Below are positions 8,493 to 26,628 of a stretch of 64,000 nt of DNA, piece after piece. The notes below the pieces were generated by a model that had not been told where the DNA came from, did no database searches, and saw nothing but the letters and a program-made list of their open reading frames with translations. Every line of letters begins with the position of its first letter. Position 1 is the first letter of the stretch. Position numbers and translations under genes: made by a program. Location of the stretch: positions 2,666,001-2,730,000 of the forward strand of contig NZ_JQNA01000002.1 in NCBI RefSeq assembly GCF_000745015.1. The letters are read 5' to 3'. This DNA is from Burkholderia sp. 9120. Lineage in GTDB: Bacteria; Pseudomonadota; Gammaproteobacteria; Burkholderiales; Burkholderiaceae.

Positions 8493-8662
8493 GCTGCGGC
8501 TTCTAGCGGCGTGGTGTCGTGTCGTGTTGCGCGGCGTCGTGATGCGCAAAACCCCGCGAGCGACAGGTGCTTCGGCGGTTTGGCGGCGTGCTCGCGCTAG
8601 AGTGACGCGGCTCGTCGATCGTGAAAGTCGGCGGGCACCGTCGCTCACTGGAGACCGCCCGC

Positions 8663-10231: not shown

Positions 10232-10505
10232 GCTTGTCTCGTCTCCGTGGGTATGTGAGCGGTACAGCGTGACGGCAACTTCTTGTTCTATATCAGCCAC
10301 GGACGATTATAGACGCAAGCTTTCGACGACGGCGAGGGGCGCGGCGCGGTGTTCAGCAGGCGTTTACCCGCATCGGCGAGGGCGGGCCGAGGGCGGCCGA
10401 CGGGGCTATCGAGGCCGTCCGGTGGACGCTTGGGCCGAAACCGGGTATTCTCTCGGTCTCGCTTTGGCGTCGCTTCCGCTCTGGTTGCCGCGCTTTTGTG
10501 TTGAA

Positions 10506-10581
10506 GCGCCCGTAGCTCAATGGATAGAGTACTGCCCTCCGAAGGCAGGGGTTGCTGGTTCGATCCCAGCCGGGCGCACCA
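10506..10581 (+). tRNA. tRNA-Arg(CCG)
   Basis: 76 nt including an encoded CCA. The acceptor stem GCGCCCG pairs with CGGGCGC, the D-arm is TAGCTCAATGGATAGAGTA, and the anticodon stem CTGCC/GGCAG encloses the loop CTCCGAA, giving anticodon CCG. The T-arm is GCTGGTTCGATCCCAGC. Its 3' half is duplicated at 24961-25005, so it is the attachment site of the island that starts here. Confidence 0.97.
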
Positions 10582-10583
10582 AT
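10540..10583 (+). repeat. Left attachment repeat (attL), 3' half of tRNA-Arg
   Basis: This segment, from the anticodon to just past CCA (CCGAAGGCAGG... to ...GGGCGCACCAAT), recurs at 24961-25005 with two substitutions. The tyrosine recombinase stop codon lies 75 nt further on, the usual arrangement for tRNA-targeting islands. Confidence 0.85.
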
Positions 10584-10655
10584 CCTGACAAGGGTTTCAG
10601 CGGGTTCTCCGCTCAGTGGTTTCCCTCCAGTACAGTGAAAATACAGTCAGACCTG

Positions 10656-11732: not shown

Positions 11733-12181
11733 TTTTCTAAATTCTCCTGCTGATCCCATTTGCTGTTGTCTTGTCGCCATTCAGGATCAGATATCGTTGC
11801 ATAGTTTGAGCTGCCGGTTTTACCAATGACTGCGCGGGGCATCATGCTGGTAATCGAGCGATGTCCCGTTTTTGCATCCAGGCTTCGATTGGTGATTTGC
11901 CCACACGCGCGTAGCGAATCCGAGACAATCTGTCTGAATGGACAGTGCAGAGTGAGCGTGCGTGGCTCTATGAGCGGCCGTCGGTCGGAAGCATCAGGCA
12001 CGGCTATCTAATCCTGGGCGATCGGGCTCAGCGCGGGCGACACCGGTGTCGAGAAAAACAGCCGCGCGTGATTGGGAAACGCCATGACCGATTGTTGGTC
12101 GGAGCACCATGCCTCTCGCGAAAAAAGCAATACAGAAATAAGGAAGCCGAGCCGTGCCGCTCTGCGCATGTTCAGTATGCT
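11733..12181. other. Island intergenic stretch without a supported gene
   Basis: Short overlapping frames on both strands show no recognisable domain. The minus-strand frame running on from the recombinase fossil includes a hydrophobic piece (LGFLISVLLF), but nothing supports translation. Confidence 0.5.
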
Positions 12182-12490
12182 CACCTTCACGCCGGCAAAC
12201 GGATTAGCCAGCACATAGTGCTGCTCGATCAGCCAACGAAACGGGGCGCGAAGATCGACAGCGCATGCGCCACGGAACGAAGAAAAGCTGCCGTTAAACG
12301 GTCGCCTGTCAGGCGCGGTGCGTGGCTGCACCGGTGCGCGAACGCGGTGAAGGTGCCGCACGAACACGATACGCGATCGCCGCCGTGAGGGACGACAGCG
12401 CCCGGCCACGCTTCAGGATAGCCCAGAGAATCAGCCGCTCGGCCTTCTTGCGATAGGTGTGCGGCCTGGCGAGTGACAGATTCAGCACGG
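12182..12490 (-). pseudogene. Fossil of a second tyrosine recombinase (N-terminal part)
   Basis: Read on the minus strand, one frame gives HTYRKKAERLILWAILKRG and RALSSLTAAIAYR. After a frame change another gives PFRWLIEQHYVLANPFAGVKV. These are, in order, the core-binding-domain motifs of a Burkholderia phage-type integrase (HTYRKEAERLILWA..., FRWLIEQRYVLANPFAG). The frame breaks in the middle and the catalytic domain is absent, so this is a degraded remnant from a mobile element different from the island integrase. Confidence 0.7.
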
Positions 12491-12518
12491 TCTACGGTTC
12501 GGTTCGAGAAATGAAATA

Positions 12519-13142
12519 CTACTTGCACTTTGTCTCATTGCACTTGAAGAAGGATTTCACGGCGCTCGCGGTCTTGTAGGGAAACAAAGTTTGCTCTCCC
12601 TCCTGATAGCCATCCATTCCGGTCATTGCGCTGTTGTCGACCACGCTCTTATTTTCGATCAGTCGGCCTTGTTCGTCTGTGGTATAGGCATATATTTGGT
12701 AGTATTTGCCGTATGTACCAATTCCGCGAGAATTTACATCCCAGTGAACAATGGTGAAAATATTCTGCTTACCATTGAGATTCATGAAAAAGAGGGAGTC
12801 GACATTCGGCGCTCCGCCTTCTATGGAATATTTTGCGAAGATCGTCTTTTCGCAGCCATTTGAATTCGGTCGGTAAATCGACAAGTTTATCGTGTGATCC
12901 GTATCGTTCTTTTCGATCGATACGACTGAGTCTTTTTGTATTTTTCCTGCGGAAAATACACCAACGGATGGCGATACAGCGGGGCAGATAGCCGGTTCGT
13001 CCGCGTTCGCATAAGCCAACGAAGCGGACGAAAGCAAAACATAGCAAGCAAGGCATTCGAAAAAACGTTTAATTTGTTTCTGGCGGAAGCCCCAAAATCG
13101 GTGCAACTTTGTTGTATGCGATAAGTCTTTCGGCATGTCCAT
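12519..13142 (-). CDS. Secreted protein, candidate immunity partner of the T6SS effector
   Basis: Up to 207 residues. A clear Sec signal (KRFFECLACYVLLSSASLAYA) begins about residue 25 of the longest frame and is followed by a ~160-residue periplasmic domain with four Cys, including a CNETKCK C-terminus. No family is recognised. It follows the effector 3' fragment directly. The effector stop (13069-13071) sits exactly at the beginning of the signal peptide, so the two genes are tightly coupled. A periplasmic protein behind a peptidoglycan-hydrolase effector is the usual position of an immunity protein; the role is inferred. The start is uncertain: ATG at 13142 gives an unusually long N-region, and no ATG, GTG or TTG immediately precedes KRFF. 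Confidence 0.65.
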   Translation of the reverse strand: MDMPKDLSHTTKLHRFWGFRQKQIKRFFECLACYVLLSSASLAYANADEPAICPAVSPSVGVFSAGKIQKDSVVSIEKNDTDHTINLSIYRPNSNGCEKTIFAKYSIEGGAPNVDSLFFMNLNGKQNIFTIVHWDVNSRGIGTYGKYYQIYAYTTDEQGRLIENKSVVDNSAMTGMDGYQEGEQTLFPYKTASAVKSFFKCNETKCK

Positions 13143-13349
13143 TTTGTCCTCCGTTGATCTGTTGTGTCACAGCCGCAACATCTCCCGTGTCTGCCACCGG
13201 ATTCACACTGCGAGTTATGACCCAAAAGACGAATGCAGATTCCACTCCATATTCGAGATTCGAAAGAAGAAGATCAGGGTTATCTAGGAAGTTTTTCTGA
13301 TCATCGGGGAAGCGATGATTGTGCTCCCTGTTGAATACTTCGTAGTTGG
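13069..13349 (-). pseudogene. 3' fragment of a T6SS peptidoglycan hydrolase effector (GH19-like C-terminus)
   Basis: The frame leaving the IS end encodes NYEVFNREHNHRFP, then FLDNPDLLLSNLEYGVESAFVFW and finally VTQQINGGQNGHAERLIAYNKV. This matches the second half of GH19 chitinase/endolysin-like domains (NPDLL, AVESA.FW, INGG.NG..ER). It has no start codon of its own. It is the tail of the gene whose N-terminus lies at 15820-16255 on the other side of the IS21 element. The catalytic first half of the GH19 domain is not found on either side. Confidence 0.75.
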
Positions 13350-13453
13350 TGTTGATTTGCACTGAATTCTGACCCACCTGACACGGTGATTTGCATCGAA
13401 TATTGACCCACGTGGAACACACTGGCCCGCTGTGCAGCTAGCGGGAGAACGGA

Positions 13454-14980
13454 GTGATCGACATGGCAATATTGAGCATCATCCGACGCTGGCATTATCG
13501 CGATCATGTCTCGCTACGCGAGATCGCCAAACGGCTTGGCGTTTCAAGAAACACCGTCAGGCGCTATATACGTGCCGGCACCGTAGTGCCCACCTATCCG
13601 GAACGGCAGAGCCCGAGCAAGCTCGACGGATTTGCGGCCAAGCTCGCCGGCTGGTTAAAGACGGAAGCAAACCGGCCGCGCAAACAGCGCAGAACCCTCA
13701 AGCAGATTTACGCTGACCTCACCGTGTTGGGATTCACAGGGTCCTACGACCGGGTCGCCGCCTTTGCGCGCCGCTGGCGACAGGAGCAGCAGGAGCAGGC
13801 AAGGAGCGCAGCACGTGGCACCTTTGTGCCGCTGACCTTTGCACCCGGAGAAGCATTCCAGTTCGACTGGAGCGAGGACTGGGCCGTGATCAACGGCGAG
13901 CGCACCAAGTTGCAGGTTGCGCAGTTCAAGCTCAGTCACAGCCGGGCGTTCTTCCTGAGGGCCTATCTGCTGCAAACCCACGAGATGCTGTTCGACGCTC
14001 ACTACCACGCGTTCGTGGCGTGGGGCGGCATTCCGCGCCGTGGCATATATGACAACATGAAGACCGCTGTCGACAAGGTTCGTCGTGGCAAGCTGCGGGA
14101 CGTCAACGCGCGCTTCAGCGCCATGGTCAGTCACTATCTGTTTGACGCCGAATTCTGCAATCCGGCCTCAGGCTGGGAGAAGGGGCAGATCGAGAAGAAC
14201 GTTCAGGACAGCCGTCACCGGCTGTGGCAACGCGTGCCGGCGTTCGGTTCGCTCTCTGCATTAAACGACTGGCTGGCCGACCAGTGTGTCCTGCTCTGGC
14301 AGCAGACGCAGCACCCTGAGCAGGACACAACGATCTGGGACGCGTGGTCGGTCGAGCGACCCCATCTGATGCCGGTCGGCCAGGCATTCGACGGCTTTGT
14401 CGAGCACACCAAACTCGTCTCGCCCACGTGTCTGGTGAGTTTCGACCGCAACCGGTATAGCGTGCCGGCGGCATTTGCGAACCGGCCCATCAGCCTGCAC
14501 GTCTACGCGGCCCAGCTCGTCTTCGTCGCCGAAGGGCAGGTCATCGCGGAGCACGTCCGGCGTATCAACCGCAGCCATGATCGCGGAGAAACCATCTACG
14601 ACTGGCGTCATTACCTCGCAGTCCTGCAGCGCAAGCCTGGAGCATTGCGCAACGGCGCGCCGTTCGCAGAGTTTCCTGCCGCCTTCAAGCGGCTGCAGAC
14701 AATCCTGCTGAAGCACGCCGGTGGCGACCGGGAGATGGTCGAGATACTGGCGCTGGTGCTGCTGCACGACGAACAGGCCGTACTCACCGCCGTCGAGCTG
14801 GCACTTGAGGCCGGTGCGCCCTCAAAGCAAACGGTGATGAACGTCCTGAGCCGGCTGCTTGACGGGGCTCCCGTGCCTCCGCTGCAGACGCCCCAGGCCT
14901 TCGCCCTGCGCGTCGAGCCGCAAGCCAACGTCGGCCGTTATGACGACCTGAGAGGCCGGGAGGATCATCATGCAGCCTGA
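13454..14980 (+). CDS. istA: IS21-family transposase IstA
   Basis: 508 residues. The N-terminal helix-turn-helix ([18 protein letters not shown]) is followed by the DDE integrase core with FQFDWSED (first Asp), [10 protein letters not shown] (second Asp) and [14 protein letters not shown] (Glu). The C-terminal Mu-type beta domain includes [11 protein letters not shown]. The frame is intact and overlaps istB by 11 bp, as usual for translational coupling in IS21 elements. The start used here is at 13454; an ATG at 13463 (MAILSII) is an alternative. Confidence 0.95.
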
Positions 14981-15746
14981 CGCCATGATGGAAATGCTCA
15001 AGTCACTGAAGCTGCACGGCATGGCCCAGGCGCTTGGCGAGCTGGCCGCGCAGGATTCCCCCGCGTACAAGTCGGCATCGCTAGTTCTGGCAGGTCTGCT
15101 CAAGGCGGAGATGGCGGCCCGTGAGGTACGTTCACTGGCCTATCAGATGAAGGTCGCCCGCTTCCCGGCGTATCGGGATCTCAACGGCTTTGACTTCGGT
15201 TGCAGCGATGTCAACGAAGCAACCGTGCGTCAGTTGCATCGGTGTGAGTTCATGACATCGGCACACAACGTCGTGCTGGTCGGCGGACCGGGCACGGGCA
15301 AAACGCATCTGGCGACGGCGATTGGCGTGCAGGCGATCGAACATGATCGAAGCCGCGTGCGTTTCTTCTCCACCATTGAACTCGTCAATGCGCTTGAGCA
15401 GGAGAAGCTGACTGGAAAGCCTGGGCAACTGGCTGTGCGTCTAATGTACGCCGACCTCGTCATCCTCGACGAACTGGGTTATCTGCCGTTCAGCCAGACC
15501 GGGGGCGCCTTGCTCTTCCATCTACTGAGCAAACTCTACGAGCGCACGAGCGTCGTCATCACAACCAATCTGAGCTTCTCTGAGTGGGCCAACGTCTTCG
15601 GCGACGCGAAGATGACCACGGCGCTGCTCGACCGGCTCACACACCACTGCCACATTGTAGAAACCGGCAACGATAGCTATCGTTTCAGGAACAGCACGAC
15701 ACAGCCTGAAAAGGAGAGAAAACGAACCCCGAAACACCCAACCTGA
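14970..15746 (+). CDS. istB: IS21-family helper ATPase IstB
   Basis: 258-residue DnaC-like AAA+ ATPase that helps IstA choose a target. It has the N-terminal helical part [20 protein letters not shown], Walker [12 protein letters not shown], Walker [14 protein letters not shown] and the sensor segment [19 protein letters not shown]. It is intact and full length, so the element could still be active if its ends are functional. Confidence 0.95.
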
Positions 15747-15819
15747 ACCCCAAAACTGGATCAAAGGGTGGGTCAGTATTCGATGCAAATCCTGGGTCCG
15801 GATTCAGTGCAAATCAACA

Positions 15820-16255
15820 GCGGGGTGATGTTCTGCGCGGCAGGGGGTGTCGTTGCCGGTGGATTCTGCGGCTGGGCGTTGCCATTCGTCGGCTGCGGGA
15901 GTATCGGCGGGAGAACGAGCCGATGGCGCACCAGCGTAAATCCCTTCGAGTAGCCCGCCTTGATTCCGTCCGGGTAAGCGACTTCCTGGAGCTTTTCATC
16001 CAGACGGAACGCGACGACCTCGCCGTCCGCGATGCATTTCACGCCGCCATCCTGCTGGAACTTGCCAGCGGTCTGCGCGCCGAAATGAATGCCGCCATGC
16101 CAGAGGCCATTGGCGCCGAGCGGATAGAAACCGTCCTCGGCCACCGCGAGCGCCTGGAGATAATCCTCGGGCGCGAGCGTGATGTTTGTGGTCTTCAGAG
16201 GAAAGGGATACGCCCAACTCTCGACTTTCGACGGCTGTTCCTGTTGTTGCGCCAC
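15820..16255 (-). pseudogene. 5' fragment of a T6SS peptidoglycan hydrolase effector (M23-like N-terminus)
   Basis: About 145 residues remain before the IS end. An M23/LytM-like domain is recognisable from LWHGGIHFGA, KCIADGEVVAFR and the strand GFTLVRHRLVLPP. It is followed by a Pro/Asn/Gln-rich linker (PPATTPPAAQNITPL) that would lead into a second catalytic domain. The gene begins 53 bp after vgrG on the same strand, the standard place for a VgrG-delivered effector. The frame is lost at the IS21 end. The matching 3' part is at 13069-13349. The truncated product may still be made but would lack the GH19 part. Confidence 0.75.
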
Positions 16256-16308
16256 ACGCTATCCTTTGTTCAAGTTGCTGTTGCAGACTGTGTCGGCCAC
16301 TGTCGCCG

Positions 16309-18861
16309 TTACCCGGAAAAATCCACCGCGCGGCGCGGCACGCTGTCGTTCCACGACGGAAACTTTTCATCGATCCGGGTCGGGCCGTTGAAGCTGTGCT
16401 GCGCACCCTTCACGTCGATTTTTCCTGGAGCGTGAATCTCGATGTTGCCGTCCTTGATACGGATATAAGCGCCCCCTGAGGTCAACAGGATTTCGCCCTT
16501 GGCGATGGCCTGAATCTGCTCGGTCGCTGAAACGAGCTTGACGCTCTTTTGTGCGGTGAGCTCGACGTTATCGTTGTGCGCCTGGATCTCCACCTTTCCT
16601 TTGGCGGCGAACAGTTTCATTCCGGCATTCTGGACGAAGAGGCTTAGTTTCTGGGTGACGCTCGCAATCAACGATTTGCCAGTTGCGATGTGGGTGCTCT
16701 GTCCGCTCACGAGGTTGGTCTGTACATCGCTGACGATGTGCACGGACTGCTGCGTGGACATGGCGATACCAGAGGGGCTACCGAACAGCATGACGGGTTC
16801 CTTGAACCCATTCGCGTTCCCGGTACCACCGCCCGCCGTGTTTCCCCCTGACGATGAGCCAGACACGCTGTTCTGTGTCGCGTCCGTGTATGACTTCAGC
16901 GAGTCATAGCCATCCTTGAGACTTTCTGCCTGATGCGTCGTGCTGGCGTTCGACATTGCTTCCAGCACGCTTTCCGAATTCACTAACTGCGAGGTCGCTT
17001 GCCGTGCATCCAGCGGCTGGCTGGTCGCCGGATAGGTGGTGACATACAAGCCTTGGCCCGCACGCACTGCACCGTAAGCGTCGGACTTCAGGTCAAAGCC
17101 ACTCCCCAGATAGCTGCCTCGGTTGTTCCCGGCCTGATCAATCAGGTAACCCAGATGCAGATGTGCGTTCGTGCTCGTTGAAAAAAGCTGAACACGGTTC
17201 TGGCCCGTCGAGTCGTCCATCACCATCTGGTTGTAGCCGCTGCCCTGATATTCCTTGGACTTGTAGCCGGATAGCAGACCGTTGGAATGCCAGTGAGGTT
17301 GCGTTGCGCCGTTGTAAACCCGGCCCGTTACAAGAGGTCTATCGCAATCGCCGTCTACCCAGTTGATCAGCACTTCTTCGCCGATTCTCGGGACATGTAC
17401 ACCGCCATACCCACCACCGGTATCAGACATGGCGACACGAACCCAGCACGACGCTTTTTCGTCACCCTCGTTGAGGCGATCCCAGTGAAAACGCACCTTG
17501 ATGCGATTCAGCGGATCGGTATAGACCTCCGCATTTGCAGGGCCGACGACAATCGCGGTCTGCAAATGCATCTTCGGTTTGTGATGGGTAAATGGGCTGC
17601 GAAACGGAACAATCTTGCGCTGAGCTTCGATCTCAACGAGAAAGAATCCTTCGCTGCCATCCGCATGCGCGACCTTCAGGCCGTGATGGTTAGCTTTCGC
17701 AGCAGCGAGCTCGCTCTTAAGGCTGTGCGGGAAATCGGTCGCCTGACTGGACACTGGCAGGTTGTTCTCGATGAACCAGGCGGTTTCGATAATCGCAAAC
17801 TGGCGGTTTTGCTGGCTATCTGGCGCATGGCCGGGATGATCGTCAAGCTGAAACCAGTATCCCGCATCCGCACCCCGCACACCACCCGAGCCATAGAACC
17901 GTTTTGCCCGCGATTCCCATTCTTCCACGCGGATTTTTGACAGTGCGTCGCCCCGGTCCTGCGTCCCATAGGTGTAGGCTCCGGTGTATTCATACACCTC
18001 AGCCTGCTCAGGCAGATTCCCCTGCGTAGGAAGCGTTGGAATGCTTGTGCCCTTGGCAAAGGTGGGGGAAGCGGGTGCCTTGTAATCGAAGGTGCGGGTC
18101 GTGAGTGTCGTGCTTTGCAGTGTTCGCGTGCCCGACCACTGAACCAGCGCATCGGTTTCGCTGTTCGTGCCGGCGCGATAAAACTGAACTGTCTGCGGTG
18201 AAAGAGGCTGGAACGTGTCGAGGCTGTCCGTAACGATGAGCGTATGGGACTTGCCATCGCTCGCCTGCTCGAAGTAGCCGAATAGCCCCTCGTTTTCCAT
18301 CAAACGGTGGACGAAATTCCAGTCGTCCTCGTATTGCATGCAGAACGACCGCGAGGGCAACGGCTTGCTCAATGCAAAGCGAAATGCACCCTGGGCTTGC
18401 GGGTGCATGTTGAAGACATCAGTCAGGATTTCGTCGGCGGGCTTGTCCTGCCAGATTCGAGCATCCTTGCGAAAACGCAGGAAATGCATCCATGACGCAT
18501 AACCGATCTGATAACTCGTGAGCGCGCTGTCCGACCCAAGACGCCGCGCGGTGTGCACATAACCGTGATGCGGCAGATAGGACCTGTCTGTCTGCTGGAC
18601 CCAAAGCGTCACCGGCTGGGCGATCAGCTTCTTGAGTTCGATCGTGCCGGAGGTGGACACGACATCAGCCGTAAATTCGTAGTGGCGGCCGATTCGTGAA
18701 TAACCGGTGACCCGCTGGGGCAGCAGGACGTTACCTCCCAAGGGACTATCCAGCTTAAGCAGGCGATCACTCTGGACGAGTCCGCCAGTGAGTGCCCCGA
18801 TTATGTCTTGCGCTCCCATACCGCCTCTATTCTGTTCCGATTGACCGAGCAACCGCTTCAC
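16309..18861 (-). CDS. Type VI secretion spike protein VgrG with DUF2345 tail
   Basis: 850-residue VgrG/TssI. The N-terminal gp27-like part includes YHFLRFRKDAR-type motifs and MQYEDDWNFVHRLMENEGLF. The gp5 OB-fold segment contains WVRVAMSDTGGGYGGVHVPR and IGEEVLINWVDGDCDRP. It is followed by GYKSKEYQGSGYNQMVMDD and then a long beta-helical DUF2345-type region (IRIKDGNIEIHAPGKIDVKG). MGAQDII at 18819 is an alternative start. No T6SS structural genes are nearby, so this is an orphan vgrG cassette using an apparatus encoded elsewhere. It heads the vgrG-effector-immunity unit. Confidence 0.95.
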   Translation of the reverse strand: MKRLLGQSEQNRGGMGAQDIIGALTGGLVQSDRLLKLDSPLGGNVLLPQRVTGYSRIGRHYEFTADVVSTSGTIELKKLIAQPVTLWVQQTDRSYLPHHGYVHTARRLGSDSALTSYQIGYASWMHFLRFRKDARIWQDKPADEILTDVFNMHPQAQGAFRFALSKPLPSRSFCMQYEDDWNFVHRLMENEGLFGYFEQASDGKSHTLIVTDSLDTFQPLSPQTVQFYRAGTNSETDALVQWSGTRTLQSTTLTTRTFDYKAPASPTFAKGTSIPTLPTQGNLPEQAEVYEYTGAYTYGTQDRGDALSKIRVEEWESRAKRFYGSGGVRGADAGYWFQLDDHPGHAPDSQQNRQFAIIETAWFIENNLPVSSQATDFPHSLKSELAAAKANHHGLKVAHADGSEGFFLVEIEAQRKIVPFRSPFTHHKPKMHLQTAIVVGPANAEVYTDPLNRIKVRFHWDRLNEGDEKASCWVRVAMSDTGGGYGGVHVPRIGEEVLINWVDGDCDRPLVTGRVYNGATQPHWHSNGLLSGYKSKEYQGSGYNQMVMDDSTGQNRVQLFSTSTNAHLHLGYLIDQAGNNRGSYLGSGFDLKSDAYGAVRAGQGLYVTTYPATSQPLDARQATSQLVNSESVLEAMSNASTTHQAESLKDGYDSLKSYTDATQNSVSGSSSGGNTAGGGTGNANGFKEPVMLFGSPSGIAMSTQQSVHIVSDVQTNLVSGQSTHIATGKSLIASVTQKLSLFVQNAGMKLFAAKGKVEIQAHNDNVELTAQKSVKLVSATEQIQAIAKGEILLTSGGAYIRIKDGNIEIHAPGKIDVKGAQHSFNGPTRIDEKFPSWNDSVPRRAVDFSG

Positions 18862-19327
18862 GCGCGATTTTACGAAACTTCACACGAATCGGCCAGCTAT
18901 TCAATGTCAGTAAGTGTGAGGCGGCATGAATTTTTTGGCTAACCAATGCGAGCGGCATATCTGTAAATTCTGTCAAATAACGTTTCGGATATTTCTTTCA
19001 GATTGCGAAATGGATTGCGATGCCCGGCTTTGAGGGCAACAACCAGATAGCCCAATCCATAAGCCATGCAGCAGGCAGAGTGTGACGAGCGTGGTGCGAT
19101 GGGCTCAGATTGACCCGTTGCCGTCCTTCTACACTCTCAAAATCGGCCATTCGTTTATAGCCGGAAGTCGGCTCTATAAGCGAAGTATAGGCTTGTCCAG
19201 CGAATCCCGTCTGTATGCGGGTGCCACGCGGGCTTCGATCTCGTTGATATCCAAACAGCGGAAACTCATATTCAGTTATCGTTCGACAGGAAGGGTCACC
19301 AATCGACACTGCACGTCCGAGAGATAC
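18862..19327. promoter_or_regulatory. Divergent intergenic region between vgrG and the DUF2235 gene
   Basis: 466 bp with no supported gene. It must carry promoters for both directions, but no convincing -35/-10 pair could be fixed. The part next to vgrG is AT-rich. A plus-strand frame runs from 19082 into the DUF2235 gene, but its first 82 codons show no conserved character. Confidence 0.4.
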
Positions 19328-20884
19328 ATGAAAAACATCGTTGTTTTCATTGATGGAACCTGGAATGACGAATCTGTTTCCGACGAGCTGACCAACGTCT
19401 ACAAGTTGTTTTCGCTCTGCATACACGATGCGAATCAGAAGGTTGCGTACATTCGAGGCGTTGGAACCGGAAAGAAGGTAGAAAATGTTGGCCCTCTCGG
19501 TCGGATGAAGCTTCCGGCAGTTCTTCGAATACCTGTCCGACGCGCTCGGAACGCGGTGGATGCTCTCTTAGGCGGCACGCTCGGCGAAGGAGCTACCGAG
19601 CGTATCAAGGAAGCTTACACCTTCATCTCGCAACACTACGATCAAGGCGATCAAGTCTTCCTTTTCGGTTTCAGTCGCGGCGCATTCATTGCCCGTGCTC
19701 TCGCAGGTTTCATTGATCAGGTTGGCGTGCTTCTGCGCAACGTAGCTCTGAGCAAACGACGTCACTACAGGGTTGAAGAGGCGTTTGAGATTTACTGGGC
19801 GGATCCCAGTCCCAGCCGCCTACGTTGGTTTCTGAGGAAGGTGACTGGACACGTGGTACTGGGAGAGAGGTTCCGGTTGCCGATTCACTTCCTGGGGCAG
19901 TGGGACGCGGTGGAGGCCCTGACGCTTCACGGCTACAGTTCCAAAATTGAGCGCCAGTTGCTCAAGATAGCGAATCGAGAGCGTGAACGGCCTGTTCCGC
20001 AGACTCTGTCGAGAACGCGACATGCACTCGCACTGCATGAACTCCGAAGCCTTTTTCTACCATTGCTTTGGAAGGTCGACGTCACGTCTGACAGTCAGCC
20101 AAATCTCGAACAACGATGGTTTGCAGGAGCGCACGCCGATGTGGGCGGAGGTTATGCCAACAGTTCGCTATCCGACGTATCGCTGCGATGGATGTACGAA
20201 GAATCTAAGGCGGCCGGCCTTCGCCTCGTGACTTTCTCGGGAAGTCGATATGACAAGAGTTACAAGTCGACGACTCTCCCTTATAACGTCATCAGTGGAA
20301 AGTACAAATTTTCCAGGATTGCCATCAGAGGCGAGATTGCCACCAACAGACGTCATTCACTTTTTGAATCGATCGACGGAAGCGCGATTCGTAGACTGTT
20401 TTCCGAAGATCTGAGTTACAGGACGAATCGGCCGATTCCAGCCGCAACTGCTCTTGCCCAGATTGATGAGCTTACCTTGAGAATACATAGTGGTTTCGAG
20501 TTCTGGCGCAGAAACGAAGGCAGCACTCCTTTATGGAGCTTTTGGCTACCAGGCTCGCTAGCCGACACTCCGTTCCTCGAGTTCGGAGACAGAATGCGAA
20601 GCTTCATCAAGGGAGATATTGCACTGACCGACGCCGAAATTCGCAACTCCTTGGTGCTCGCGCTGGACGTGGCTGGCAACTTTGCTTTCGACCTCCGAGA
20701 TTTTGCAGAAATGGCGGTCGCCAAAGTTCGGAGCACAATGCCGACCCCTGCGGAGCGGGCCTCGTCAATGACGCGAATTCGAAGACTCTACGATGCGGCC
20801 GACTCTTTGAGCGGCACCCACCCAAGCATGGCGCGGATTCAGATCCTGGTTCTTGCTTTGACTTTGGAGCCAAGGTTTGCATAA
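19328..20884 (+). CDS. DUF2235 domain protein, Tle-like lipase candidate
   Basis: 518 residues. The alpha/beta-hydrolase-like DUF2235 domain starts MKNIVVFIDGTWND, has the nucleophile elbow FLFGFSRGAFIARALAG (GxSxG), and further on GAHADVGGGY, which carries the conserved Asp. This family includes type VI phospholipase effectors (Tle class), and the gene is divergent from an orphan vgrG, which fits. The C-terminal 200 residues have no recognised domain. The start at 19328 is chosen because the conserved domain begins there. Whether it is an effector for this VgrG or an independent cargo gene cannot be decided from the sequence. Confidence 0.8.
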   Translation: MKNIVVFIDGTWNDESVSDELTNVYKLFSLCIHDANQKVAYIRGVGTGKKVENVGPLGRMKLPAVLRIPVRRARNAVDALLGGTLGEGATERIKEAYTFISQHYDQGDQVFLFGFSRGAFIARALAGFIDQVGVLLRNVALSKRRHYRVEEAFEIYWADPSPSRLRWFLRKVTGHVVLGERFRLPIHFLGQWDAVEALTLHGYSSKIERQLLKIANRERERPVPQTLSRTRHALALHELRSLFLPLLWKVDVTSDSQPNLEQRWFAGAHADVGGGYANSSLSDVSLRWMYEESKAAGLRLVTFSGSRYDKSYKSTTLPYNVISGKYKFSRIAIRGEIATNRRHSLFESIDGSAIRRLFSEDLSYRTNRPIPAATALAQIDELTLRIHSGFEFWRRNEGSTPLWSFWLPGSLADTPFLEFGDRMRSFIKGDIALTDAEIRNSLVLALDVAGNFAFDLRDFAEMAVAKVRSTMPTPAERASSMTRIRRLYDAADSLSGTHPSMARIQILVLALTLEPRFA

Positions 20885-21339
20885 GGCCCCTTGTATCGCA
20901 ACAATCCGCCCGACGGCGAAATCGGAGAGATCTGAAATAATAGAACGCGAGAGCAGTTAACATCTCAATCACGCGAAAGCAATGTAAATGGAAATTAATA
21001 GTATGTCGATCGATGTCGACAACCTAACCGACAACCATCTCCGCGCGATAGCGCAAACACCAGGGCCGTCTGGCCGGCGGCTGGCAATGTCCACTGACTC
21101 ACCGCGACGTGTAGCCTGCAGAGCAACTGTTTCGGTAGGTCATGACGGACATTCCTCGACCCGATTAGGTCAGCCGCTATGCCGCAAAGCAGCGTTGGCC
21201 GCTACAGAATGGTGAGTATCCGTGTCAGGGGCGCTGAAGCCATCAAGTCATCGGGAATAGTCTTCAGTATACGGCGTCAAGCACCATGGCCGGTCAGCGA
21301 CAACTATCGTGGCAGGTCAACGGGTGTAGTTTTCGCTGG
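20885..21339. other. Gap with only a short doubtful frame and the outer end of an IS remnant
   Basis: A 75-codon frame at 20988-21215 starts MEINSMSIDVDNLTDNHLRA but turns into low-complexity Arg/Ser sequence and has no recognisable domain. The last ~100 bp up to the istB remnant stop look like the outer end of a degraded IS21-type element. Confidence 0.4.
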
Positions 21340-22010
21340 TTAATCGGTCATAGTTGTCGTTCCTCCTTCGCTATTGTCGTCGGGTAATTGACGTCGGCGG
21401 GCACTCTGCTTGTCGCTGGCCTTACGACGGCGATAGCTTTCGACGTTGAGCCCGAAGATCGTCGAGTGATGCACAAGCCGGTCGATGGCGGCGATCGTCA
21501 TGCCCGGGTCAGGGAGCACATCGTTCCAGCCCGAGAAGGGCTGGTTGGCCGTAATCAGAAGGTTTTTGCGCTCATATCTCTCCGCGATCAGTTCGAACAG
21601 CACGCTGGTTTCGTGCCTGGTCCTTGCGCGCGTATGACAGGTCATCAAGGATGATGAGATCGAAGCGATCGAGCTTCGCGAGCGTGGATGGCAGTTGCAG
21701 GCTCTGGCGAGCGGTCTGGAGCTTCTGGACGAGTTCAGCGGTGCGCGTGAATAGCACGCGGTAGCCGGCGTCAATCAGCGCATGGCCGATGGCTGAGCCT
21801 AAATGACTCTTGCCGCCGCCCGTCGGGCCGAACAGGAGAATTGTGGCGCCTTTCTCCAGCCAGAATTCTCCTGTGTCCAGCGCCGTGACATGCGCCTTCG
21901 AGACCATCGGCACCATGCCGAAGTCGAAGGTAGCAAGCGTCTTGGTCGAGTCCAGACGCGACTCGGTAGGGTGCCGCGCGATGCGTCGCGTCGCGAATGG
22001 TGTGTCTCAA
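21340..22010 (-). pseudogene. Truncated, frameshifted istB of a second IS21-family element
   Basis: Reading leftwards, FATRRIARHPTESRLDS and DFGMVPMVSKAHV lead into Walker A LLFGPTGGGKSHL and Walker B FDLIILDDLSYARKDQ. One extra base near 21614 then shifts the frame, and the protein continues in the next frame with ETSVLFELIAERYERKNLLI and MTIAAIDRLVHHSTIFGLNVESYRRR. The N-terminal ~80 residues and the whole of istA are missing. It belongs to a different IS21 subgroup from the intact element at 13350-15819. Its 5' break lies against the truncated HlyD gene, so it probably marks the deletion that removed the end of that gene. Confidence 0.88.
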
Positions 22011-22020
22011 GGCACAACGG

Positions 22021-23217
22021 TCAGCGAAGTCGATTTGTAAATAACAAGTAGCTCAATGCCATCCCTGCCTGTAGTGCCTGCGGCTTGCCGTAGGCGGTCA
22101 CGGTTTGCGATTTGAGTGCGACCGTGATCCGGTAGAACGTGCCATTGGGGTCGGCGGGACCACCGCTCGTCATGAGTTCCGCGCTGGACAGCGCAGTGCG
22201 CGCGATCGATACGACGGTGGCCGCGTATTGCCCGAACTTCTGATACGGGTACGCCTGGTAGCGGATCAGCACCGGATCGCCGACGTGAACGAAGCCCACT
22301 GCGGCACTCTGCACGAACAGGTATGCCTGCCAGTGTGCGCCATCGGGAACGATGCTCGCGAGCGGGTGGGTCGTATCGACCATCTGCCCCGGTTCAGCGA
22401 TCACGGCAGTCGCAGTGCCGGTTTCGGATGCGGTGATCGCGAGTTCGCGCCTGGCCTCGCTCTCGATCAGGCTCTGATCGACTTCCATCACGCTGCGGCT
22501 GATCTGTGACACCTGGTTCTGCTGTTTGAGCGTGAGTCCGGCAAGTTCGTTGGTGGCTTCCTTCAGCGACTGTGCCCTGCTGGTGCGGTCCCCCAGCAGG
22601 GCATTGAGCTTCGATTGCTGGTCGAGCAGATCGGCCTCGCGCTGTTGGGCCTGGTCCGTCGAAATGTAGTCCTTTGCGAGCAGACCCGCATAGCGCGAGG
22701 CTGCATCAGCGGCAAGCGACGCACGCGTGCGCTGCGCCGTGATCTGGTTGTCGATGCCGGCGAGTTCTGCACGCAGGCTCGCGATCTTCGCCTGCAACGT
22801 GTCACGCTCGTCGCTTTGCAACTGCCGGATCTTGCTGATTTCCTGCTGCAACGATGCCTTGCGCTGGCGGGCCTGATCGATGAGCGCGGCCTGCGTCTGG
22901 CCCTCGACCGCGCTTTGCACGTCATCCGACACGGTGTACAGCACCTGCCCGCGTGTCACTCGCTGGCCCTCGGTCACGCGTCTGTTCAATACGATGCCGC
23001 CCTGCTGCGCGTAGATTTTGACAAGACCAGCATCGGGCGTCAGCACGCCTTCCACAGTTGTGCGTCGCGTGTAGGTGCCGAAGGCGAACAGCAGAATTAC
23101 GGCGAATGCCATGCAGGCGCTGAAGGCCGTCAGGAATGAAAAAGACAGCGGCTGAACCAGGATTACTTCCCCGAGTAGCTGTGTTCCCTGTGCGTTTTGC
23201 GCTTCGCGCCGGAACAA
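22021..23217 (-). CDS. HlyD/CvaA-type secretion adaptor, C-terminally truncated
   Basis: 398 residues of a membrane-fusion (periplasmic adaptor) protein of the kind that works with peptidase-containing ABC exporters. A single TM segment (FSFLTAFSACMAFAVILLFAF) is followed by a beta-barrel/lipoyl half (GLVKIYAQQGGIVLNRRVTEGQRVTRGQVLYTVS), a long coiled-coil hairpin (about residues 100-230), and the second lipoyl and barrel parts (GTATAVIAEPGQMV, DPVLIRYQAYPYQKFGQY). Normal members continue after LQAGM with ~25 more residues; here it ends in LSYLLFTNRLR at the IS remnant. The first usable start is TTG at 23217, with no clear Shine-Dalgarno. It lies downstream of the microcin-like gene on the same strand. 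Confidence 0.85.
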   Translation of the reverse strand: MFRREAQNAQGTQLLGEVILVQPLSFSFLTAFSACMAFAVILLFAFGTYTRRTTVEGVLTPDAGLVKIYAQQGGIVLNRRVTEGQRVTRGQVLYTVSDDVQSAVEGQTQAALIDQARQRKASLQQEISKIRQLQSDERDTLQAKIASLRAELAGIDNQITAQRTRASLAADAASRYAGLLAKDYISTDQAQQREADLLDQQSKLNALLGDRTSRAQSLKEATNELAGLTLKQQNQVSQISRSVMEVDQSLIESEARRELAITASETGTATAVIAEPGQMVDTTHPLASIVPDGAHWQAYLFVQSAAVGFVHVGDPVLIRYQAYPYQKFGQYAATVVSIARTALSSAELMTSGGPADPNGTFYRITVALKSQTVTAYGKPQALQAGMALSYLLFTNRLR

Positions 23218-23570
23218 ATCATTTTTGGAATTAATTTTTATAAAATGAAACTGAAGGATATTAGCTTTCTGAAATATTCCCTAGGAATAGGCTGGGGCGT
23301 TGTCAGAAATCGTTTAAGTGTGTCTGGAGCGTGTTAAGCACACTTATCCGACACTCCGAAAATAGCTTGGGTCGAACAATCGGCCGCGTGTTCCGAGTGA
23401 AAGCGATTCTGAGGTATACAAACCGGGAATAACTCAAAGCGTTCCCGAAACTGGATATTTGGCCGCGAAACGATTTAGCAAACGTTTGCGTGGCCAAGCT
23501 AACGAGCTGACCTGTCAAAGTCAAGAAAGAACGAAAAACAGGCCCGCTTGATGACAACCCTGGCGCTCGC
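23218..23570. other. AT-rich gap between the microcin-like gene and the HlyD gene
   Basis: 353 bp without a supported gene. A small hairpin (GTGTG...CACAC, around 23317-23342) lies in the middle. Upstream of the HlyD frame there is an in-frame TAG and no ATG. Confidence 0.4.
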
Positions 23571-23855
23571 CTAGCCGCCGCCGCCAATTTTCTTCATCCC
23601 GCCTACCACGCCACCGGTAATCATTCCGCCGATGCCTGAGTGCGCCCAATTGAGGCCCGAATACGCACCGGTTAGCGCGCCAGTAATGCCGCCGTAAAAC
23701 GCGCCTGACGCGATGGCGTACACGATGCCGCTCACGCCACCAGCATCCTGATTCGGCTGGTCCTGCTGCTCCATTCCTCCTGATACCACTGCAATTTCGC
23801 TGGCCGTCAATTCATGAATCGAGGGACAAAAACCAATATTTACATGATCAATCAT
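23571..23855 (-). CDS. Class II microcin/bacteriocin-like precursor with double-glycine leader
   Basis: 94 residues. Residues 1-27 form a leader ending IHELTASEIAVVSGG, which fits the double-glycine consensus (hydrophobic and Glu pattern, then V-S-G-G) cut by peptidase-containing ABC transporters. The 67-residue core starts MEQQDQPNQDAGG and is a Gly/Ala-rich, hydrophobic, GxxxG-dense region (YGGITGALTGAYSG, IGGMITGGVVGG) ending KKIGGGG, typical of pore-forming class II bacteriocins. The ATG at 23855 has a GGAAAGAAGG ribosome site, which itself lies inside the end of the candidate immunity gene. A HlyD adaptor follows. It has no Ser-rich siderophore tail and no Cys in the core. Confidence 0.78.
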   Translation of the reverse strand: MIDHVNIGFCPSIHELTASEIAVVSGGMEQQDQPNQDAGGVSGIVYAIASGAFYGGITGALTGAYSGLNWAHSGIGGMITGGVVGGMKKIGGGG

Positions 23856-24045
23856 CACCTTTCTTCCTTCCATTTTCGAAGTTAAAGAAAATCTCAGCTA
23901 ACAGGACAGATGAGGCGCCAACGAGAACATCTTTCCATACAGAGCCATTTAAAATTTCAATTTTTCCGAGGATGACGGCCATTGCGATCCCAATCAGAAA
24001 AATAAGTACGCATTTTGCCAAAATATCCGTAATGGATGTTTTCAT
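23848..24045 (-). CDS. Small two-TM protein, candidate microcin immunity protein
   Basis: 65 residues with two hydrophobic helices (LAKCVLIFLIGIAMAVIL and VWKDVLVGASSVLLAEIFF) and a charged C-terminal tail NFENGRKKGDD. Its last 8 bases (ATGATTGA) overlap the start of the microcin-like gene, so the two are translationally coupled. Very small membrane proteins in this position are the usual immunity proteins of class II microcins; the role is inferred. The start is ATG at 24045; a GTG at 24063 in frame would add six residues. A 15-bp palindrome (AGAATC-TTA-GATTCT, 24070-24084) lies just upstream and could be an operator. Confidence 0.65.
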   Translation of the reverse strand: MKTSITDILAKCVLIFLIGIAMAVILGKIEILNGSVWKDVLVGASSVLLAEIFFNFENGRKKGDD

Positions 24046-24063
24046 GAAAAGTCCGTGTATCAC

Positions 24064-24654
24064 AGCGACAGAATCTTAGATTCTTAACATTTACCTCGTA
24101 AGTATGTCTAGTAAACGTATTTGAACGCTGTTAATTTCTCGGCGTTGCCTCACGCTGAGGTAGTTGATGAAGTGCGCCATCGTCCTGAGCAAACTCGAGG
24201 AGACGACCTTGATGCATTTATTCTTCAAGCGCATCAATATTCAACACACTTTATATGCAGTCACAGTTTGAAACAAGATGTAACGAATACAGTCAAAATA
24301 GTTGGGAGATTGAAATTATTCTCATCTATGTCCGTATTAATTGTGTAATGGTTGTGAAAATAAAGATATGCACATAGCATTGCAAAAACCAAACCCGATC
24401 GTCGCGGATGTGTATAACAATCAGCAGGTTATTGGCATCTCAAATTTACCCTCCAAAATACTTTCTATTTGTAATTTTTTAAAAATATCTTGCATTTAGC
24501 TTTTTATTCTAATTTTGCCCTTGACGCAGGATTGTTACCATTACCAGCGATGGGCTTGATTGCATCGATGCTAGGAGGATCAGTGAGATACGTATCTTTG
24601 CGAAGTGTGTCGTGCGGTAGGGAGCAACGGACAATCGATGCCTACATCGCCTGA
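24064..24654. other. AT-rich island stretch, no supported gene
   Basis: Nearly 600 bp, markedly richer in A+T than the surroundings. A 75-codon plus-strand frame at 24121-24348 starts with TTG and has no recognisable features. The promoter for the microcin cassette should lie at the left edge, but no convincing boxes could be fixed. Confidence 0.45.
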
Positions 24655-24760
24655 AGCTCTAAAACTCAGTCCCCTCCGCGCCTGCGGGCTTCTCTTGTGG
24701 GGCGGGTTTTCATGTAGCGGGCCATCTAGGCGGGAAACCCGCACGGGGTGGGTTCGCCAG
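24655..24760. ncRNA. GC-rich structured element, possible phage C4-type antisense RNA
   Basis: Inside AT-rich island DNA, a compact GC-rich segment contains several complementary pieces: GGGCGGGTTTTCATGTAGCG, GGCGGGAAACCCGC, and CCTCCGCGCCTGCGGG. On the minus strand this reads as nested hairpins. The text around CATGAAAACCCGCC resembles what is often found in phage and P4-like regulatory (C4) leaders. The family assignment is a guess from pattern; the structure itself is visible. Confidence 0.25.
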
Positions 24761-24960
24761 CGTTTGACGACATCAGAAAGCGTTGCAGTTTGATGCAAGA
24801 TGACGCACTTTGATGCGCGTGTAGAGTCACAGGCAGGCGTAGCTAAAGTACACCTTGAACAGCACTGAGTGATCTTGATTAGCCTTGGTTTTGCAATTTG
24901 TAATTTGCAATTTGCGTGAGGCATTGATTCAGCAAGGAATTTGTTGCGTAGATAAAACTG

Positions 24961-25005
24961 CCGAAAGCAGGGGTTGCTGGTTCGACCCCAGCCGGGCGCA
25001 CCAAT
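24961..25005 (+). repeat. Right attachment repeat (attR), imperfect copy of the tRNA-Arg 3' half
   Basis: 45 bp match the tRNA-Arg 3' half (10540-10584) except for GGC to AGC in the anticodon stem and GAT to GAC in the T-loop region. The acceptor 5' strand and D-arm are missing, so it is not a tRNA gene. It closes the 14.4-kb island. The two substitutions mean this copy is old or came from another donor. Confidence 0.88.
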
Positions 25006-25056
25006 AGCCGTAAGGCTTCCAGCGGTTTTTCCGTCTCTCCGTCTCCGTCGCTGCAG

Positions 25057-25191
25057 CTAGATTGCAGCTAGCATCGATTCGGACGGTGCCGTCAGCGGCG
25101 CCACCCAGCGCGCCAGATGATCGGCCGACAAGTCGGCATACCGTCGCACCATTTCCAGCGTTTTCCATCCGCCCAGCTCCTTGAGTACCTG
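25057..25191 (-). pseudogene. C-terminal remnant of a second island integrase
   Basis: The minus strand reads QVLKELGGWKTLEMVRRYAD, then LSADHLARWVAPL, and stops at 25057. This is almost the same as the C-terminus of the intact integrase (QVLKELGGWETLEMVQRYAH, LSADHLARWVQPH), including the catalytic Tyr region. It starts abruptly at a junction near 25191. Its distance to the attachment repeat mirrors the spacing on the left side, so it is the left end of an older island that used the same tRNA. Confidence 0.88.
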
Positions 25192-25212
25192 TGGGGGGCG
25201 TGTCGCGTATCA

Positions 25213-25473
25213 CCGACTGCCTTTCTCGCCTTCAAGCTGCAGAAACTGGACGCTCAGGTGAGTTACGGATACGTGCTGCTGCAGAGAAAGTACTCGAAGG
25301 AAATCTCGTACCAGGATCCGGGGAGAATCGGTCAGATCGATTGGGGACTCAATGTCCGCAACAAATGCACGACGGCGGATTGTCTGTCGAAAGCCGATTC
25401 GTTGCGCATCAACTATATAAAGACGAAGGTGTCCGACAGCTACCCGTCTTATCCGGAAGAAGAGAACGACTGA
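25213..25473 (+). pseudogene. C-terminal fragment resembling LprI/DUF1311 proteins
   Basis: The open frame encodes FKLQKLDAQVSYGYVLLQRK, then IGQIDWGLNVRNKCTTADCL and SKADSLRINYI before the stop. LprI/DUF1311 domains have the same layout (LDxxLNxxY..., W...RNxCxxxxCLxxxYxxRI). There is no N-terminus or signal peptide because the sequence begins at the junction with the integrase remnant. It is probably the stump of a secreted lysozyme-inhibitor-like gene cut by the island rearrangement. Confidence 0.55.
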
Positions 25474-25510
25474 AGCGGACTTCTTCGAAGGAACTGACGG
25501 AAACAGACTG

Positions 25511-25534
25511 GCCGCCGCCCAGGGCGGCCTTTGT
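25511..25534 (+). terminator. Hairpin followed by short T-run
   Basis: GGCCGCC / GGGCGGCC with a 5-6 nt loop is followed by TTTG. It lies between the convergent DUF1311-like fragment and the HAD lipoprotein gene. Confidence 0.6.
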
Positions 25535-25557
25535 CACATTCTCGATCAGTTCACTTT

Positions 25558-26628
25558 TCAATTCACCGGTGCCGCACCCGCCGCCGCATCACTCGCCGCC
25601 CCATCCGCCTTAAAAACCGTCTTCCAGTCCCCCTTCATATCCACAACCAGCCAGCCCTTCGTCCCGGCTTCGTCCAGACCCTTATCGAGTTTGCCGCTCT
25701 TCGATGTGCGGTCGTACGCATACTCCCGCTCCGCATCCGTGTGATGCACAAGCGCAGCAAGCCGCGGCCCATCGCCGGCCGAAGTCCATTCCAGCATCGG
25801 CACGTCGCCATCCGAGTTGCCGAATGCAATCACCGGACGCCGCCCGATTACGCGATCAATCGCAAGCGGCTTGGCCGAACCGTCGACCAGACTGTCGACC
25901 TGCGCGAGACGGGTCAGCGAGACCGCGCCGTTGGTCTGCGTATAGCGGTATTTAACGGTGCTACCAATAACCTGCTCCGGCGGAATGCCATACACGCGCT
26001 GCGCCAGATCCCGCACGAATTCGACGTCGCTGCCGGTCACCAGATAAGTCTTGAAGCCGTTGGCGCGCAGATAGGCGAGCAATTCGAGCATGGGCTGATA
26101 CGCGAGATCCGCATACAGCCGGTTGAAGCGCGGATCGCTCGCGGAATCGAACCATTCGTGCACGAGCGCGGCGAACTGGTCGCTGGTCATGCCGGCGTGG
26201 GCCGCCGCGAGGACGCGCATCGACCCGGTGTCGCCGCTCGCGGCTATGCTTTTCAGATTGCCTCTAAGAATCGAGCGAAACGGTTCCTGGCGCTTCCACT
26301 CCGGATGCTTGCCGGCCACCGTCTTCACGCGTTGCAGCGCGAACACCAGTTGCACCGACGCCGGTTGTTCGGGCCACAGGGTGCCGTCGTTATCGAACAC
26401 GGCGATACGGTCTGCGCGCGGGATGAAGTCCTTGGACTCGGGCGTCGTCACCAGTTGGACGAAATCGACGATCGAGCGCTTGGCCGTGGTGTCGTTCCAT
26501 GACGCCAGCGACGCCGCCGTCGATGCGCCGGCCGGCGCTTCGCTCACGTCATGACGTGGCGTGACGGAGCAGGCTGAAAGGACTACGACGGCGAAGGCAA
26601 TGCAGTATCGGTGCATCGTGCGAATCAT
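25558..26628 (-). CDS. HAD-superfamily phosphatase, putative lipoprotein
   Basis: 356 residues. The N-terminal signal ends in VVVLSAC (lipobox Cys about residue 20), so the enzyme is probably anchored in the envelope. The HAD motifs are motif I AVFDNDGTLWPEQP, motif II YLVTGSD and motif IV AFGNSDGDVPML. The central Lys-containing region KPLAIDRVIGRRPV precedes motif IV. This arrangement resembles haloacid dehalogenase-like phosphoserine phosphatase-type proteins exported by Burkholderia; the substrate is unknown. ATG at 26616 (MHRYC) is an alternative start. Confidence 0.9.
   Translation of the reverse strand: MIRTMHRYCIAFAVVVLSACSVTPRHDVSEAPAGASTAASLASWNDTTAKRSIVDFVQLVTTPESKDFIPRADRIAVFDNDGTLWPEQPASVQLVFALQRVKTVAGKHPEWKRQEPFRSILRGNLKSIAASGDTGSMRVLAAAHAGMTSDQFAALVHEWFDSASDPRFNRLYADLAYQPMLELLAYLRANGFKTYLVTGSDVEFVRDLAQRVYGIPPEQVIGSTVKYRYTQTNGAVSLTRLAQVDSLVDGSAKPLAIDRVIGRRPVIAFGNSDGDVPMLEWTSAGDGPRLAALVHHTDAEREYAYDRTSKSGKLDKGLDEAGTKGWLVVDMKGDWKTVFKADGAASDAAAGAAPVN

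Follow-up and report, generated by a model that had tools for sequence, protein, structure and literature searches.

Introduction

Class II microcins are defined, in the available text of one review, by five components: a precursor carrying a leader that ends in GG or GA, a small immunity protein encoded nearby, a C39 peptidase ABC exporter with a Cys/His/Asp active site, a membrane fusion protein, and TolC in the outer membrane (PMC9746304). As outlined in the accessible parts of two reviews, this leader is cleaved by a C39 domain, the peptide is exported and acts on the inner membrane, and a membrane protein blocks it (PMC9746304, PMC10233263). The known immunity proteins measure 51-216 aa, usually with transmembrane helices (PMC9746304), and an overlap of the immunity and peptide genes is ordinary among these systems (PMC10233263). 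The experimentally known representatives covered in these parts come from Enterobacteriaceae, later ones from other groups (PMC10233263, PMC9746304). Among the open-licence literature matches listed, judged by titles and the starts of abstracts, no Paraburkholderia microcin is described, and the word-start 'Burkholder' does not occur in the available portions of PMC9746304, PMC11494933, PMC13174018 and PMC10231218.

Two further systems come close by description. The Cdz system of Caulobacter (CdzC/CdzD/CdzI) comprises small glycine-zipper proteins with a cleaved leader, a T1SS and a small inner-membrane immunity protein; according to the available text, Cdz-like proteins have 60-151 residues, a leader ending in G[G/A/S], an uninterrupted zipper flanked by Pro or charge, and a short charged or polar tail (PMC5380434). 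Moraxella catarrhalis produces a non-enterobacterial double-glycine bacteriocin (McbC/McbI) from mcbABCI, which includes MFP and ABC genes and, in an overlapping ORF, encodes a 74-aa immunity factor; the order as described there is exporter, toxin, immunity (PMC2761928).

Here we analyse a locus within a 64,000-nt stretch of the chromosome of the soil bacterium Burkholderia sp. 9120 (the window), where an initial annotation had proposed a new microcin family member in Paraburkholderia. Like the class IIa microcins (microcin V, with CvaC, Cvi, CvaB, CvaA and TolC; also N, L, PDI and S), it features a double-glycine leader, a Gly-rich core without a Ser-rich siderophore tail (PMC9746304, PMC10233263, available text), a small candidate immunity gene for a membrane protein overlapping the precursor gene (PMC10233263) and, in relatives, an MFP plus C39-ABC exporter. 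Unlike them, its peptide reaches no bacteriocin model and has a core without Cys, and the cassette has a TolC-like gene of its own, is chromosomal, belongs to Burkholderiaceae and has lost its exporter in the window. It shares the general design of the Cdz system but has one peptide instead of two, with the immunity-like gene first and overlapping; the overlap, the type of leader and the MFP and ABC genes are likenesses to mcbABCI, whereas the gene order differs.

Results

A double-glycine peptide gene overlaps a gene for a candidate immunity protein

Reading of the window sequence bore out the 94-codon gene described in the initial annotation, with its 27-residue leader and its 67-residue Gly-rich, Cys-free core of GxxxG repeats ending in GGGG, as well as its 8-bp overlap (23848-23855) with a 65-residue two-TM gene in the order immunity-then-toxin (Table 1). 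The start codon at 23855 was preferred over an in-frame ATG at 23873 because relatives begin at the equivalent codon. The leader ends in LTASEIAVVSGG, i.e., in GG, as class II microcin leaders may, and would be cut after GG according to the leader rule of that class. In six aligned sequences, including that of the window, E-L-T, E and V-S-G-G are invariant in the leader, and so are many Gly positions of the core. Gly accounts for 29.9% of the core residues, and the single Cys of the precursor lies in the leader. Residues 38-87 contain neither Pro nor charge and carry eight GxxxG motifs. The lack of a Ser-rich siderophore tail also held, the peptide ending in KKIGGGG, with no Ser, in contrast to the Ser/Gly-rich siderophore-attachment tail of class IIb. 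AlphaFold placed helices at residues 36-66 and 70-90 of the precursor, predicting with low confidence a helical hairpin in the core (pLDDT ~71-76 in the core and only 60 over the whole model).

Pfam and NCBIfam matches of the window peptide were at chance level, no bacteriocin model being reached, and the peptide of a related Paraburkholderia solitsugae 1N locus (L011) likewise had none above that level. No solved structure matched the peptide profile at E<=1. A plasmid home for the peptide was rejected, as a tblastn search of 72,556 plasmid records remained without a match at E<=0.01.

The 65-codon protein is predicted to form helices at residues 5-32 and 37-63 (AlphaFold, mean pLDDT 69, alignment of three sequences) and reaches no Pfam or NCBIfam cut-off. 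Being small, with two hydrophobic helices, and overlapping and co-occurring with the peptide gene, it is a putative immunity protein of the kind found near class II microcin precursors. Used alone as query, it retrieved one relative besides itself, a 94% identical hypothetical protein of Paraburkholderia sp. BCC1876. The 15-bp palindrome that had been pointed out upstream, AGAATCTTAGATTCT, is present at 24070-24084; since L011 and L035, the two relatives compared, lack an equivalent ahead of the membrane gene, it was for now rejected as a shared operator.

Table 1. Features of the window, of the second cassette of the same genome (L032) and of the related cassette of P. solitsugae 1N (L011)
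Feature	Location	Strand	Remarks
tRNA-Arg(CCG)	10506-10581	+	Likely island insertion site
Phage-type integrase	10656-11780	-	Beside tRNA; PF00589, E 5.9e-34
IS21-type element	13454-15746		In island
160-codon frame	15773-16255		Behind VgrG; no Pfam match
VgrG	16309-18861	-	In island
142-codon frame	18998-19426		In island; no Pfam match
Tle1-like T6SS phospholipase (lipase)	19082-20884	+	In island
IS21-type istB remnant, two frames	21340-21916	-	PF01695 in two separate ORFs; ~140 bp past HlyD break
Foreign C-terminal codons of HlyD frame	22021-22056	-	Replace C-terminal stretch common to nine HlyD proteins
HlyD/CvaA-type membrane fusion protein gene	ORF 23217-22021; homologous part 22057-23217	-	3'-truncated; Pfam HlyD_3 cut-off passed
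Precursor peptide, candidate class II microcin / glycine-zipper bacteriocin	23855-23571	-	ATG, 94 codons, read from sequence
Gly/Ala-rich core, 67 residues	23574-23774	-	Ends GGGG
Double-glycine leader, 27 residues (MIDHVNIGFCPSIHELTASEIAVVSGG)	23775-23855	-	VSGG at residues 24-27
Two-helix membrane protein, candidate immunity protein	24045-23848	-	First of pair; ATG, 65 codons
Direct repeat of tRNA-Arg 3' end + flank, 73 nt	24961-25033	+	Attachment-site-like; 84% identity
Repeat from within integrase 3' part, 103 nt	25090-25192		83%; beyond far tRNA repeat
Second microcin-like cassette, own genome	L032 6394-12168		113-codon glycine-zipper peptide (GA leader), 125-codon membrane protein, HlyD, C39-ABC, TolC-like
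L011 membrane protein	9777-9971		
L011 peptide	9968-10249		4-bp overlap with membrane protein gene
L011 HlyD	10524-11783		Exporter genes directly downstream of pair
L011 C39-ABC	11798-13966		
L011 TolC-like	13963-15405		

Relatives keep the leader and core, and the small frames evolve as coding sequence

Protein and profile searches uncovered homologues with a conserved leader, on which the proposal had been made to depend. A search of 5.8 billion proteins returned three relatives of the peptide besides itself, at 52-70% identity and with leader and core kept. A profile built from seven peptide sequences, with scoring limited to the 7,993 candidates that had the most words in common, recovered 11 proteins at E<=0.01, four of them known before; the new ones include P0008 (Burkholderia sp. 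GAS332), P0012 (Burkholderia guangdongensis) and P0013. The latter, which bears the source name 'lactobin A/cerein 7B family class IIb bacteriocin', is 38% identical to the window peptide (P0001) and represents a distant member of the same peptide family, differing by its GA leader and another core start.

Translation of the frame, the other premise, is supported by its evolution as coding sequence. Between the window and its relatives, dN of the peptide gene was 0.33-0.36 with dS values of 1.8-4.3, near saturation, and dN of the membrane gene was 0.31-0.32, with dS saturated and no value computable. Between L011 and L035 (from genome G123), the peptide gene has a dN of 0.12 and a dS of 0.35, the membrane gene 0.08 and 0.16, and HlyD 0.01 and 0.08. 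In 6/6 comparisons the third codon position was the most changed, and dN was below dS wherever dS was computable. Because relatives keep leader and core and the substitutions follow this pattern, we consider the small frames real genes, more than chance.

Within the genus, the peptide profile matched 19 of 144 genomes at E<=0.01, of which only the own genome (G000), G087 and G123 did so strongly (E<1e-30). The other 16 (E 0.001-0.01) were rejected as family members, and so was one extra weak match in the own genome, because they span model positions 46-88 only, in open frames of 337-612 codons; each reflects either chance similarity of Gly-rich sequence or a different protein family. The membrane-protein profile hit exactly the same three of the 144 genomes, in each case adjoining the peptide. 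Two ends of L036, a locus from G087, fall within L011, so G087 is the P. solitsugae 1N genome or a near-identical one.

In a family-wide sample of 398 genomes, four reached E<=1e-4 with the peptide profile, namely G000, G470, G379 and G346; G087 and G123 are absent among these matches and so evidently lie outside the sample. In G470, which belongs to another genus, the membrane-protein gene adjoins a peptide gene whose frame is broken. G346 and G379 hold distant peptide relatives (the G379 copy is broken) and match neither the 65-codon membrane protein nor, over the 19.9 kb covered, HlyD or TolC. The co-occurrence expected of the pair is thus observed in the same 3/144 genomes and in G470, but does not extend to these two distant cases. 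C39 exporters are encoded elsewhere in both (four matches in G346 and nine in G379), and the G346 peptide (L093 9034-9890) has a GA leader and a 4-bp overlap with an upstream 164-codon frame in which hydrophobic stretches are visible by eye.

Some alleles are broken: the G470 peptide is frame-disrupted (L091 9051-9345), and P0010 looks frame-shifted against P0007. P0011 is identical to the core-only frame of G470 and is on record in 20 contigs, so this disruption is probably no single sequencing error.

Related cassettes carry a C39 exporter behind differing cargo

Complete peptidase-ABC cassettes, with which a comparison had been envisaged, were found in L011, L035 and L091 (G470, peptide frame-broken). 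All three have the gene order of L011, which corresponds to the five-component layout of class II microcins, and a full-length HlyD. The L011 proteins pass the Pfam cut-offs for Peptidase_C39, the ABC membrane and ATPase domains, and OEP, while none of the NCBIfam families listed is matched above its curated cut-off by the HlyD, ABC or TolC-like protein. Among solved structures, the best match of the L011 exporter is the bacteriocin exporter 4ry2 (E 1.7e-97). The C39 active-site motifs (Cys, His and Asp stretches) are readable in this protein and, likewise, in 8/8 further exporters of the same clade; the L011 and L035 exporters both have them.

Of the 18 exporter loci of the genus that we surveyed, 17 are full-length matches to the L011 exporter and one is a fragment. 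At ten of them, the exporter shares ~65% or more with that of L011, and eight of these ten have, by motif, a double-glycine Gly-rich peptide upstream of HlyD. The remaining two, L068 (from G040, with the HlyD nearest to that of the window) and L081 (from G022, the exporter fragment), show no cargo by motif, which may miss it. The G056 exporter is 84% identical to L011 at the DNA level from the HlyD start onward, and upstream only a 130-nt piece located before the pair is common to both, at 74%. Its cargo peptide is unrelated in sequence, yet has leader and zipper, and scores 24 bits (E 6e-5) against the Pfam MccV model PF17508, whose cut-off is 27.

The other eight of the 18 loci encode exporters with 48-52% identity to that of L011, two of them with an in-frame stop. 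A motif-based look at their surroundings revealed Gly-rich leader peptides at two loci (L073, L074) and none at L075, L076, L077 and L079; L078 has a GD-rich protein, and L080 a long Ser-rich one at its side. The protein at L080 (reverse complement, 7879-8745; G028), which lies by the C39 exporter, has 288 codons, a Ser/Thr-rich sequence and a double-glycine leader, and is long for such cargo. As a separate observation, a ~1,030-codon C39-ABC exporter, about 32% identical to that of L011, occurs in most (by eye) of the 107 genomes with matches; in the own genome (L001), it is adjoined by a frame that by eye resembles a parvulin-type isomerase.

For most of the 13 kb aligned, each 250-nt bin shows 92-99% identity between L011 and L035. 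The bin preceding the pair, with 143 aligned columns and otherwise gap, falls to 87%; the membrane gene follows with 90%, the peptide with 83% and the spacer behind it with 80%. The dip in the membrane-gene and peptide bins would be as expected of a diversifying pair; it is not confined to genes, since its minimum falls in the non-coding spacer and gaps make up part of the bins that precede the pair. Both loci have the same cassette neighbours, other than those in the window, among them, downstream, a gene that we take to be riboflavin synthase.

The window cassette is truncated within a tRNA-Arg island

The HlyD adaptor reported to follow the pair exists as a HlyD-family gene, but as the 3'-truncated remnant of a cassette without exporter. 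Its product is 66% identical to the HlyD proteins of L011 and L035 and 82% to that of G040. Homology to L011/L035 stops at about 22057, and the stretch replaced beyond this point is common to nine HlyD proteins, those of eight other genomic loci and of the second cassette of the own genome. Within the 64-kb window, ABC and TolC searches gave no match to the L011 proteins at E<=1e-3. The window copy has a membrane fusion protein gene in 3'-truncated form and no C39-ABC exporter, which the family does have in L011, L035 and L091. Because the exporter is found in relatives only, we file the family as of the class II microcin kind and the window copy as a truncated member.

Elsewhere in the genome, the istB stretch next to the HlyD break is matched once, at G000:C1:1391847 (68% identity); the interval between break and remnant, 21917-22056, is unassigned. 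Probably, the cassette was cut by a deletion near this IS21 remnant, by which the HlyD end and the ABC and TolC genes would be gone. With these missing, dedicated export of the peptide is probably lacking in the window's strain, barring a C39 exporter from elsewhere that works in trans; the strain may still be immune.

The pair sits near one end of a 14.4-kb stretch delimited by tRNA-Arg(CCG) and, on the far side, by 73 nt that repeat the 3' end of this tRNA, and the 103-nt integrase repeat beyond the far end suggests an earlier or second insertion. Among Rfam families, the tRNA alone reaches the gathering score in the interval 10300-25600, and PADLOC identified no defence gene among the four island proteins scanned.

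A second cassette in the same genome

The genome that harbors the window has a second microcin-like cassette (Table 1). Its HlyD gene has an in-frame stop at codon 264, either real or a sequencing error, and intact copies occur in relatives. Given this stop and the truncated window gene, neither HlyD of the cassette kind is whole in the assembly. The second-cassette ABC gene has no stop and its product is 73% identical to the L011 exporter; the TolC-like gene is in open frame. TolC, which for a class II microcin may be encoded anywhere in the genome, thus has a TolC-like counterpart in this second cassette, as in the cassettes of relatives, and none in the window.

Discussion

We read the pair as encoding a double-glycine, glycine-zipper bacteriocin precursor in the layout of class IIa microcins together with an inner-membrane immunity protein, the exporter having been lost in this strain (probability about 0.77). 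This is the best explanation because leader and core are kept, the two genes overlap and co-occur, and C39-ABC, HlyD and TolC-like genes lie downstream in relatives. The conserved-leader homologues, co-occurrence, coding evolution and C39 cassettes of relatives likewise support the microcin family membership originally proposed. Killing, immunity and export are ascribed to the pair by analogy with described systems: the C39 domain of the exporter would cut the leader after Gly-Gly, and the exporter would secrete the 67-residue core, a hairpin-like Gly zipper; this core would then insert into or permeabilise the inner membrane of related bacteria, and the two-helix protein would block it in the producer. 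In the window's genome, a deletion near the IS21 remnant within the tRNA-Arg island would have removed the exporter.

The peptide could instead be a Cdz-like contact-dependent toxin, that is, a T1SS-exported glycine-zipper protein that aggregates on the producer surface and kills touching cells only, a reading that we hold to be unlikely. The window peptide has all four published features of such proteins (94 residues, a GG leader, a zipper at 38-87 flanked by Asp/Lys and a short charged tail), and the available text of the same study mentions potential Cdz-like systems in Burkholderia cepacia and most such systems as having one toxin gene, although in Caulobacter itself the immunity gene lies behind two toxin genes (cdzCDI) rather than ahead of a single one (PMC5380434). 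The Pro- and charge-free stretch is nevertheless shorter in relatives, with 19 residues in P0003, 24 in P0012 and 22 in P0013. Diffusible class IIa microcins have the same leader, exporter and glycine-rich cores, and because these traits are common to both kinds the two are not separable here. A secreted pheromone-like signal, instead of a toxin, is far less plausible still. Double-glycine leaders and C39 exporters serve signal peptides too, and the NCBIfam BlpC pheromone model is weakly listed for the G056 cargo (E 0.013); against this stand the long Gly-zipper core, a membrane gene whose occurrence and divergence go along with those of the peptide, and the absence, by eye, of a sensor kinase or regulator among the ORFs around L011 and L035.

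A bacteriocin-immunity origin leaves room for a different present role. Conceivably, though doubtfully, immunity or stability, and not attack, is what maintains the pair today, as an orphan on a mobile island that guards against kin with intact cassettes. Despite the loss of the exporter both frames are intact, the pair is located within the tRNA-Arg island, and a 94% identical membrane protein is found in strain BCC1876; however, the deletion is perhaps too recent for gene decay, and the peptide may yet have the use of a different C39 exporter. Such export in trans appears improbable in its turn. The five C39 matches over the Pfam cut-off in the own genome leave it some room; four have the Cys-type active-site motif, but the frame of one of these four, with 272 codons, is too short to encode an ABC exporter. 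The second cassette would contribute an ABC gene without stop and an open TolC-like frame, and the MccV exporter is described, in the available text, as highly promiscuous (PMC10231218). On the other side, the HlyD of that cassette is stopped and the window HlyD has no conserved C-terminal stretch, and only two proteins of the genome match the L011 exporter at E<=1e-100, that of the second cassette and one at 31%.

Returning to the bacteriocin-immunity pair, the family is of a known kind, found under no curated name, and the window holds an intact toxin-immunity-like pair in a broken cassette. As a tentative generalisation, which we regard as possible rather than likely, the T1SS glycine-zipper toxins of Burkholderiaceae may be built of interchangeable cargo-immunity modules ahead of a conserved HlyD-ABC-TolC exporter, with some strains keeping an exporter-less pair on a tRNA-Arg island, alongside T6SS effector genes, as pure anti-kin resistance. 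The conserved cassette, whose precursor and immunity sequences are related at several levels of divergence and whose exporter carries different cargo from genome to genome, provides material for tests of exporter-leader and toxin-immunity specificity, and with the exporter-less copy nature offers a way to ask if selection acts on immunity by itself.
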